This document shows, piece by piece, positions 32,440-34,557 of a DNA stretch of 64,000 nt. Each line of letters starts with the position of its first letter. Position 1 is the first letter of the stretch. The position numbers were made by a program, and so were the translations under genes. The DNA is from Millionella massiliensis (GTDB lineage Bacteria > Bacteroidota > Bacteroidia > Bacteroidales > Rikenellaceae): positions 2,650,246 to 2,714,245 of the forward strand of contig NZ_FNWD01000002.1 in the NCBI RefSeq assembly GCF_900104655.1, read 5' to 3'. The notes beneath the pieces were generated by a model. It was given only the letters and a program-made list of their open reading frames with translations, searched no databases and was not told where the DNA came from.

Positions 32440-32756
32440 ATGGCTTAATCTTGATTTTGGAATTATATATGTTCCAAATATAATAATATTTTTCAGAAAT
32501 ACAAAAAAATATTATTTTTAAAAAAATTAACTAAGAGAAGTATTCATTCTTGATTTTATCTGAGTTTAAAAGCGTACATCGCACGCATTTTAGACAACAA
32601 ACAATGAAGATAAGATCCTCTTGGCGCTGTCGAAAGAACCGGAAGCCAATATCCCTGTCTCCCCGGAAGAAGCCGAGATCGAAGCTATGTGCTATCCTCG
32701 GATTCATCATTGTAAATTTACTGATCAGCCTGAAGACGATATAGCTATTGGCAGGC
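32440..32756. other. AT-rich intergenic region with an undefined remnant frame
   Basis: Very AT-rich at 32440-32560. A plus-strand frame without a convincing start (32594 to about 32756, reading NNEDKILLALSKEPEANIPV then SPEEAEIEAM) has protein-like composition and may be a decayed gene piece; I cannot name it. Confidence 0.3.
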
Positions 32757-32809
32757 ATACCAGAGCAGTAAGGGGTTGGCGTTCTGCCAACCCCTTACTG
32801 CTCTGGTAT
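32757..32809. repeat. Perfect 24-bp inverted repeat with 5-nt loop
   Basis: Bases 32757-32780 pair perfectly with 32786-32809, loop GTTCT. No T tract follows on either strand within 5 bases, so it is not a standard terminator. A second small perfect hairpin (TCGGTGGC/GCCACCGA, 32824-32842) follows. Confidence 0.8.
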
Positions 32810-32906
32810 TTCACAAAGTGCCATCGGTGGCTCTGCCACCGAATCCCCGAAGTATTTTACCCGGGAACGATGAACAAAGATAATTCACTAAATTGGGAAT
32901 AATAAA

Positions 32907-32981
32907 AAACTTTGTATATATTTACATCAACATGCTCACCCCGCTTCCCGTCAGATCAGCGCGCTCAGGGTGAGCTTTTTT
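32907..32981 (+). ncRNA. Candidate leader RNA (abiF-motif-like) ahead of the Abi_2 remnant
   Basis: A -7-like AAACTTTG (32907-32914) is followed within about 20 bp by a hairpin whose outer stem GCTCACCC/GGGTGAGC (32934-32941 with 32968-32975) ends in TTTTTT (32976-32981), only 9 bp before the ATG of an Abi_2 fragment. AbiF/Abi_2 genes are known to be preceded by a conserved structured RNA (abiF motif), so this may be its remnant or an attenuator. I judged this only by position and simple pairing. Confidence 0.35.
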
Positions 32982-32989
32982 ATATCCCA

Positions 32990-33142
32990 ATGTGCCGTAT
33001 TTCATACTCTAAACAACTGAAATATTTCTCGGACCAAATAACCCTGCTAAAACAGCGGGGGTTAATATTCCTGGATGAGGCCCAAGCTCTGCATCTGTTA
33101 CAAAACATCAGGATCCGTTCCCTCCGAGTTGGATTACCTTAG
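32990..33142 (+). pseudogene. Abi_2/AbiF-family abortive-infection gene, N-terminal remnant
   Basis: Only about 50 codons remain: MCRISYSKQLKYFSDQITLL then KQRGLIFLDEAQALHLLQNI. This matches the start of Abi_2 (AbiD/AbiF) proteins, where a Q..LL..RGL..D...A...L..I segment opens a protein of about 300 residues. The usual YYRL motif that should follow is lost, the frame stops at 33142, and no later part of the family is visible. It is therefore a truncated relic of a phage-defence gene. It lies convergent to an ArdC-like remnant that is also broken. Confidence 0.55.
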
Positions 33143-33162
33143 AGATCTCTTCTCTCGGGACA

Positions 33163-33606
33163 TTATCTATTTTGTATGCCTCTTTTATCCCATGTCAAGC
33201 AAAAAGAGACATTGCAATTGTCTTTTTCTTCTGAAGACAACTCTTTATATTCTTCATACTTTATCGTGACCTTTGTTTCCTTCTCAACACACGTAAACGT
33301 TGTCAGTAATACAGGGAATGATTTAGCGCCTTTCAACACCGAGACTAACGGCTGACCTGGTGCATTCAAACGTTGCAACGCAGCGAAAGTACAAAATCGA
33401 GCTACAGGATAACCTTCTTTCTCGCAGTGCATCAACAACATCATTGCATTCATCCCGTTATACTCTCTTCCTGCAAGATTCCATGGCTACTGCAAGGTAT
33501 TTTCAGCAAACCAGGGTTTTTGCCAGTCCGTGCTTATGGTTTCGATTTTCTCAATCGTCATTTGAGAAAATAATTCAAGAGTTTTCGTAATCTCGGTGCT
33601 TAGTGC
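33163..33606 (-). pseudogene. ArdC/DUF1738-like anti-restriction protein, N-terminal remnant
   Basis: On the minus strand a frame can be read from 33606: STEITKTLELFSQMTIEKIE, then STDWQKPWFAENTLQ, then an in-frame TAG at 33487-33489, then PWNLAGREYNGMNAMMLLMH and LVSVLKGAKSFPVLLTTFTC, ending at 33163. The order of kPWf, NL.GreYnGmNammL and KGaKsfPV matches the N-terminal ssDNA-binding domain of ArdC-type proteins carried by Bacteroidota plasmids and conjugative elements. The zincin domain is missing and the frame is broken, so it is a decayed fragment. It marks an old mobile-element insertion. Confidence 0.6.
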
Positions 33607-33675
33607 CTAACTGTTAAGGTTTAGAGTTTTTGTTTTCCCCTTATGTGGCGTGGTGTCAGCGGGAAAACTTTTTGA

Positions 33676-33939
33676 TATGGCAATGAAAAGGAGCTGTGGC
33701 GCACCGGCATCATCCGTGCCCGGGGCACGGACATAGAGCCTCCGGCGAAAAATACAGAAGCCCGCCTGGGCAAGGATGATTTTTCGCCGGAGGTGATGCA
33801 AGATCAGCCAGAGATCCTACTTTCGCCGTATCAAAAAGGAGTTCCAGCCGGCGTCCACAAGAGGGAAGGAAAGTCCGTCCTTCGGCCGCTTGCGGCGCTC
33901 AGTATTTGCCGAGCTCGTCGGTCGACGGTCGCGTCCTGA
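33676..33939 (+). pseudogene. Unrecognised gene remnant
   Basis: An 88-codon plus-strand frame without a proper start, directly after a TGA: YGNEKELWRTGIIRARGTDI, EPPAKNTEARLGKDDFSPEV, SPYQKGVPAGVHKREGKSVL. The composition is clearly protein-like and GC-richer than its surroundings. I do not recognise the family; the neighbouring ArdC-like fragment suggests a mobile-element gene. It lacks a start codon for the first 50 residues, so it is taken as a fragment. Confidence 0.35.
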
Positions 33940-33994
33940 AGAAAAGAGACCCAAAAGGGAAAGGGATGTGACGTTGTATTATGATAGAATGATA

Positions 33995-34018
33995 CCGGTT
34001 CTCGGTACCGAGAATCGG
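33995..34018. repeat. 24-bp near-perfect palindrome
   Basis: CCGGTTCTCGGTACCGAGAATCGG, with a perfect 16-bp core TTCTCGGTACCGAGAA. It lies in noncoding DNA between the gene remnants and the JAMM-lipoprotein gene. It could be a protein-binding site or a dif/resolution-type site; there is no direct evidence. Confidence 0.5.
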
Positions 34019-34297
34019 CCTGATCTACTCGGCGAGAAAAACGAAACTTTCGGCAACCAGTGTCGCAGCCGGGCGCCGTCCTGCGAAGCCGGCAGATCCG
34101 TCCGGCGAGAAACTCGGAACTTTGGAGTATTCAATATATAAACAATCCCCCGAAATTCATTATTTAATTACACGAGATTTAACCCGAAGCAAAACCACAA
34201 CAATATGTAGCACATGCAATAACAATAATTTTGCATAAAACTTTTTAAGAACATTAAATCAATTATTTATTATATTTACACAAATTTTTTTACACAT

Positions 34298-34305
34298 TAG
34301 TTTTG
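34298..34305 (+). promoter_or_regulatory. -7 box of the JAMM-lipoprotein unit
   Basis: TAGTTTTG matches TAnnTTTG. It is 42 bp upstream of the ATG at 34348, within a very AT-rich stretch. A TTTA about 20 bp upstream (34275-34278) may serve as the -33 element. Confidence 0.5.
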
Positions 34306-34347
34306 TCACCCCTGTCTCACATATATTTACTTTAACCTCAATGTTGT

Positions 34348-34557
34348 ATGAATAGAAAGCTATTCACTTACATGCTGTTGATCGCCATAGCCGGAGTGGT
34401 GCTATGGGCGTGCCAGCACGAAAGGTTCAGCCACAGCGACGAACCTTACAGTCAACCCGATCTGACGGTTAGCGAAGCGCAGCAGATTTTCGAACAGCAA
34501 TACGCTGAATCGTTGCCGTACATGACCAAATCGACCGGCGCAAACCGGCAGGTATGA
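34348..34557 (+). CDS. Lipoprotein leader and N-terminus of the JAMM-domain protein (frameshifted)
   Basis: A 69-residue open frame: lipoprotein signal (MNRKLFTYMLLIAIAGVVLW, lipobox LWAC), then LTVSEAQQIFEQQYAESLPY and a stop. The stop overlaps the start of the next frame (ATGA at 34554-34557). The next frame begins MTPGAFTPFWKKARL, which reads as the natural continuation of this kind of Bacteroidota lipoprotein (an F-T-P-x-W segment after a T-K-S-rich linker). A single missing G in the CAGGT at 34548-34552 would restore one continuous protein. It is therefore taken as the 5' part of the following gene rather than a separate peptide, though true translational coupling is possible. Confidence 0.6.
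   Translation: MNRKLFTYMLLIAIAGVVLWACQHERFSHSDEPYSQPDLTVSEAQQIFEQQYAESLPYMTKSTGANRQV

Follow-up and report, generated by a model that had tools for sequence, protein, structure and literature searches.

The 64,000-nt stretch of Millionella massiliensis DNA analysed here (G000:C1:2650246-2714245, in a 2.89-Mb genome; hereafter, the window) quite probably contains an AbiF locus, a type III-like toxin-antitoxin system, that has decayed and left its RNA as a solitary putative antitoxin of a subtype missed by the Rfam model. All its elements lie on the forward strand: a -7-like promoter box (TATATTTA, 32917-32924), a putative abiF-like antitoxin RNA hairpin that starts 9 nt further 3' (32934-32975), the run TTTTTT behind the outer stem (32976-32981), probably the intrinsic terminator of a small RNA, and the ATG of an abiF relic at 32990. 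Direct reading confirmed this succession of box, hairpin, T-run and Abi_2 start, which the initial annotation of the region had pointed out. The hairpin consists of a 7-bp outer stem (GCTCACC, 32934-32940, with GGTGAGC, 32969-32975), a single C, a 3-bp inner stem CGC/GCG (32942-32944 with 32959-32961), a 14-nt loop (32945-32958) and, 3' of the inner stem, an internal loop of 7 nt (32962-32968); the 8-bp outer stem of the initial annotation is obtained if the possible pair C32941:G32968 is added. Its predicted folding energy is -17.7 kcal/mol (z -3.2), equalled by one of 200 shuffled sequences. The RNA may still be made, weakly, or may be silent, since the box has five of the six fixed bases of TAnnTTTG and departs from this consensus at the last one. 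About 110 bp 5' of the RNA lies an inverted repeat (32757-32809) of two perfectly matching 24-bp arms, 5 nt apart, whose first 20 bases recur in the window only as its own other arm; the best Rfam matches at E<=10, animal miRNA models on this palindrome (32758-32808), were taken as chance.

The Rfam model of the abiF RNA (RF03085) did not match in the window at its gathering cut-off (37 bits), on 32700-33300 up to E 10 or in the whole genome at E<=0.01; it is through homology and covariation that the abiF-type RNA suspected in front of the gene was borne out. When 32440-34350 was compared with 61 genomes by blastn, the hairpin was recovered from two that belong to other families, once at 85% identity directly 5' of a full-length Abi_2 gene and once at 81% without Abi_2 (L004), and a separate search added a third relative (L012). 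Hairpin DNA 85% identical to that of the window stands 5' of Abi_2 genes in genomes from other families of the order (G050/L017 and G131/L012). R1, a covariance model built from seven relatives with the window left out, gave the window RNA 58.5 bits (E 5.4e-15); together with the blastn relatives 5' of Abi_2, this score rules out a chance hairpin. The isrD model also matched the hairpin, but its 18.7 bits are far from its cut-off of 37 and the match was taken as chance. Abi_2 was present in 12 of 150 relatives searched, and their leaders carry, as judged by eye, a look-alike hairpin in six cases (in L021 the Abi_2 frame has stops, and L022 lies at a contig end), by model score the Rfam abiF RNA in two (57-58 bits), and neither kind of hairpin in L016, L018, L020 and L023. 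R1 matches in L015 (12.9 bits) and at a second place in the window (10.9 bits, E 1.5) were not accepted as leaders. L018 also has a weak R1 match (1195-1244, 20.8 bits), which is not an Abi_2 leader because it lies on the strand opposite to its Abi_2. The window RNA is thus an AbiF-associated RNA in the wide sense, the RNAs of its relatives adjoining abi_2 upstream, and leaders at homologous Abi_2 loci are related to that of the window; unrelated ones had been named beforehand as evidence against an abiF-type RNA.

In an alignment of ten sequences that spans both kinds of RNA, the window and two Rfam-type leaders included, pairing is retained in 99 of 100 pair cells, and double changes occur in five of ten pairs. 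Neither the paired percentage nor the covariation score was reached by any of 500 shuffles, and the number of double-change pairs was reached by 21; the number of pair types is not raised (495 of 500 shuffles reach it), and slid versions of the alignment pair at 25-46%. The loop of the window RNA is identical to that of the L058 leader, and the two differences between these hairpins amount to one U-A to C-G pair swap. The window RNA has the architecture of RF03085, sharing with it the outer stem, 1-nt bulge, 3-bp inner stem, loop, 3' internal loop of 6-7 nt and position 5' of abi_2, but it differs in its inner stem (CGC/GCG versus AGC/GCU), its loop (14 versus 11 nt) and its internal loop (CGCUCAG versus CAAAUC). 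The two subtypes are linked by seven of the 73 RNA places detected in the order, which both R1 and RF03085 match. The G262 RNA combines an 11-nt loop of the Rfam type with a CGC/GCG stem, and this mixture, like the places matched by both models, indicates that the window RNA is homologous in architecture yet outside the curated Rfam family. A joint covariance model of all subtypes was dropped, MAFFT having placed the 3' stems out of register. Forms with a longer loop were found by a pattern scan in Gelidibacter pelagius, Bizionia algoritergicola and Gelidibacter salicanalis, all 5' of an Abi_2 frame (in one case a frame cut by the end of its sequence record); the pattern had one N too many, hence no count was drawn from it.

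The toxin gene is ruined. Its first piece (32990-33111, plus strand, from the ATG) has 29 of 40 residues identical to the AbiF of L058, or 73% identity over the first 40 codons. At 33111/33112 the DNA alignment to L058 skips 331 nt and the frame shifts too, and a second piece follows in that other frame (33112-33228, plus strand, codons ~150 onward), similar to L058 codons 144-189 and fading afterwards, so that the relic is without codons ~41-150. This second fragment, which reaches past the end of the initial annotation, matches Abi_2 (PF07751) at 33103-33228 with E 0.002; it is the sole match in the whole genome at E<=10, and its 19.1 bits fall short of the 25.6 bits set as curated cut-off, in keeping with a relic. 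The RxxxxH motif was not found in the relic or downstream. An Abi_2 relic, as originally proposed, is therefore present as two fragments in two frames rather than as an intact Abi_2/HEPN toxin with its RxxxxH. On the opposite strand, the relic's end is overlapped by an N-terminal fragment of an ArdC-type antirestriction gene (33163-33453, minus strand; PF08401 ArdcN, E 6e-8). The DNA that holds the AbiF relic and the ArdC fragment looks like part of a decayed mobile element and is flanked by an FtsX/MacB permease on one side and an ORF without significant Pfam match on the other.

In an AbiF system, a short structured RNA encoded directly 5' of the toxin gene keeps a HEPN ribonuclease in check. 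A close parallel is RCd22/AbiF of C. difficile phi027, for which PMC12373285 describes, as in the window, an RNA 5' of Abi_2/AbiF, a terminator and a type III-like organisation, but with two abiF motifs in one ~100-nt RNA and an intact toxin. According to the same source, RCd22 is transcribed 5' of abiF, mostly stopping before the gene, and binds AbiF, neutralising it in cis and in trans, and changes that break its stems abolish neutralisation. For AbiFr, nucleotides in a single-stranded bulge are said in a review to inhibit the nuclease, and in the PbAbiF-AbiFr structure (PDB 8vz6) each HEPN toxin monomer carries one RNA (PMC12737573). Compared with four AbiF proteins, the 8vz6 toxin is nearest to that of L069, which has an Rfam-type leader (618 bits), followed by the L012 and L058 proteins with leaders of the window subtype, type C (258 and 263 bits), and a type B protein (210 bits), so that the RNA in the structure probably belongs to another subtype than the window's. 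AbiF has been described as the ancestor of Cas13 (PMC12737573, PMC12165695).

In the intact relatives, the TAnnTTTG promoter would start an RNA of ~50 nt, and little toxin mRNA would be made because the hairpin with its U-run also resembles a terminator. By analogy with RCd22, for which this was shown, and AbiFr, for which it is reported, the RNA would attach to the toxin dimer and obstruct the active site, and that of the window would once have had such a restraining role. The window now combines a toxin gene destroyed by the 331-nt deletion and further loss with a complete hairpin. The toxin was presumably lost before the antitoxin, since losing the antitoxin first would be harmful and losing the toxin first nearly costless. 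The RNA that remains could neutralise incoming AbiF toxins.

The window is not unique in this respect, and toxin-less RNAs are a sizeable share elsewhere. Under strict filters, by which weak matches are lost, R1 matched 52 places in 46 of 393 genomes of the order and RF03085 28 places in 24; PF07751 matched in 69 of these genomes, above its cut-off in 62. An RNA was detected 5' of 36 of 54 full-length, uninterrupted Abi_2 genes, in 35 cases at a distance of 105-142 nt from the Pfam start and in the remaining case at 226 nt; neither R1 nor RF03085 detected one for the other 18. Eleven of these 18 were inspected, plus G075 from outside that set; four of the 11 show a further leader variant by eye (G474:C12, G454, G201 and G278) and seven nothing convincing. 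When the sequence that follows each of the 73 RNA places, to a maximum of 1.35 kb, was compared with 34 AbiF proteins, 36 places had an intact toxin, 17 a relic (three at contig ends) and 20 none. Excluding 11 places under 35 bits with R1 and 37 bits with RF03085 (two intact, two relic, seven none) leaves 62 confident RNAs. The toxin is intact at 34 of these, reduced to a relic at 15 (two of them at contig ends) and absent at 13; G377, G354 and G262 were counted as intact on their open frames, and the last class takes in very short remnants such as G287, which on direct reading keeps the start and six codons. Away from contig ends, 26 of 60 confident RNAs have no intact toxin. Of ten pairs, the RNAs keep on average 9.79 with intact toxin, 9.73 with a relic and 9.62 with none, under a parse that maximises pairing; this similarity is no proof of selection, because detection favours well-preserved RNAs. 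An exact TAnnTTTG lies 9-11 nt 5' of the stem in 32/34, 13/15 and 11/13 of them, respectively, and the window is one of two relics among the six of 62 without it.

Two explanations for the persistence of the window RNA have to be weighed here. According to the first, to which we give somewhat less than an even chance, the whole locus is dying, its promoter damaged and its RNA neither made nor selected, and the hairpin is intact merely because 48 nt are slower to be struck than 900. The missing consensus base of the -7 box, the fragmentary state of both the ArdC and the Abi_2 neighbours, and the failure of R1 to find an RNA in any of seven further species from the genus (several represented by incomplete genomes) agree with such a decay, whereas a complete hairpin whose difference from its nearest relative is compensatory, not destroying, argues against it, as do the toxin-less RNAs elsewhere, most of which retain box and pairs, with the reservation that well-preserved RNAs are the easiest to detect. 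According to the second, which we consider rather unlikely, the RNA is a selected orphan antitoxin, retained as protection (anti-addiction) from AbiF toxins that plasmids, prophages or neighbours carry. The abundance of confident RNAs without intact toxin is consistent with it, although orphans are predicted by the order of loss alone. So is the presence in G380 of a 105-bp unit of promoter and RNA in two copies, both toxin-less and 88.6% alike, one of them with a 96% orthologue in G548, but the 4% distance between G548 and G380 is too small to show constraint; the imperfect promoter box of the window also speaks against selection. A third point in its favour comes from plasmid pPP10, where two RNA copies surround a defence gene.

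The plasmid in question, pPP10 of Persicobacter psychrovividus (L206 / NZ_AP025302), carries type C abiF-like RNAs at 33566 and 34459 on either side of an UzuA-like GIY-YIG defence gene, which gives the impression that defence genes might be exchanged at the hairpins. Ten proteins neighbouring toxin-less RNAs were scanned; among them are a type I restriction subunit, a Fic protein, a protein kinase, a HEPN/nucleotidyltransferase pair, a RhuM-type protein, a phosphoesterase, a helix-turn-helix protein and a DUF3990 protein, with one lacking any match. The HEPN/nucleotidyltransferase pair (L088 1741-2405) lies just 3' of the toxin-less abiF-like RNA of G427. At L094 523-628 (G259:C2), R1 (25.2 bits) and RF03085 (37.4 bits) match in tandem, and no AbiF was found downstream.

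RNAs of this kind also occur in viruses. A scan of IMG/VR with exact RNA cores matched five contigs for type C, 13 for type B and 19 for the Rfam type, the 37 records including one identical sequence five times (L166, L167, L168, L171 and L172). PF07751 at E<=1 was absent from 32 of these 37 contigs (4/5 of type C and 28/32 of the others), some of which may be fragments. Outer stems with 6-7 of 7 pairs were found in 4/4 type C, 9/9 type B and 11/18 Rfam-type orphans, that is, among the 31 of 32 orphans that could be parsed, with patterns that fix the stems only in part and with four of the type B cases being that repeated sequence. The seven Rfam-type orphans that fail (L175, L178, L181, L184, L187, L188 and L191) have an abiF core without the outer 3' stem, followed by a partly conserved stretch, and are possibly parts of a longer composite RNA. 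Of 18 proteins near the viral RNAs, 12 matched PHROGs families, among them baseplate, tail spike, endolysin, portal, terminase, helicase and integrase, and six matched nothing or a family of unknown function. On one viral contig (L156 3694-4052), a permuted tmRNA (RF04321, 68.9 bits) lies just 5' of the orphan RNA.

Among annotated phages, 67 records match the Rfam-type hairpin at E<=1, and the window hairpin has no convincing match (one, E 0.6). All 12 records examined matched RF03085, 11 of them above its cut-off, and none matched PF07751 at E<=1. They include Acj61 (Straboviridae), T7-Ah and PZL-Ah8 (Studiervirinae), the cyanophages S-CREM1 and S-SZBM1, the mycobacteriophages LittleE, Thibault, Lolly9, Douge and GenevaB15, and a scaffold of a faecal phage. 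In S-CREM1, S-SZBM1, Douge and GenevaB15, tRNA genes stand on both sides of the RNA, and in Lolly9 it abuts tRNA-Asn. Nineteen selected hairpins (18 distinct) were aligned, from 11 of the 12 phage records (without L202) and eight of the 18 parsed Rfam-type viral orphans; those left out are the seven without outer stem, L185 and L190 with a longer internal loop, and L189, whose hairpin is identical to that of Acj61. The rows of L195 and L198 are shifted by one base. The alignment retains 95.5% of its pair cells, and double changes occur in five of ten pairs; none of 500 shuffles reached the covariation score and 10 the number of pairs. AbiF protein itself, searched with that of L012, was found in 74 phage records, of which Streptococcus phages account for 52. 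The idea that the hairpin is a mere terminator or attenuator of abiF mRNA, suggested by the outer stem and T-rich stretch just 5' of the start codon in many relatives, is very improbable given a loop, inner stem and internal loop that appear conserved beyond a terminator's needs, the abiF RNAs without Abi_2 match in the 12 phage records and the action in trans reported for RCd22 (PMC12373285).

Beyond the reading of the window as a decayed AbiF locus with a solitary putative antitoxin RNA, we tentatively propose, at a level of confidence that stays under one half, that stand-alone, toxin-less AbiF antitoxin RNAs circulate, in phages as decoys against AbiF and on chromosomes and plasmids as anti-addiction orphans, that of the window included. 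The phage RNAs would then mimic the AbiF antitoxin as pseudo-ToxI of phage PhiTE mimics ToxI: both are antitoxin-like RNAs without a toxin, with the difference that pseudo-ToxI imitates the ToxI of ToxIN and not the abiF RNA, and that its effect was shown by experiment (PMC3475682). The abiF sRNA of the lytic cyanophage S-CREM1 has been reported as an Rfam annotation, and neutralisation of a toxin is not part of that description (PMC9964418). Our literature search, which covered sources other than the original PbAbiF paper, returned no report of toxin-less abiF RNAs as antitoxins. The window thus leads to an RNA subtype missed by the Rfam model and to a considerable proportion of antitoxin RNAs without toxin, and it raises the question of whether the abiF RNAs of phages, some inside tRNA clusters, neutralise AbiF. 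If so, these decoy RNAs, several of them in tRNA clusters, would be the counterpart of pseudo-ToxI.
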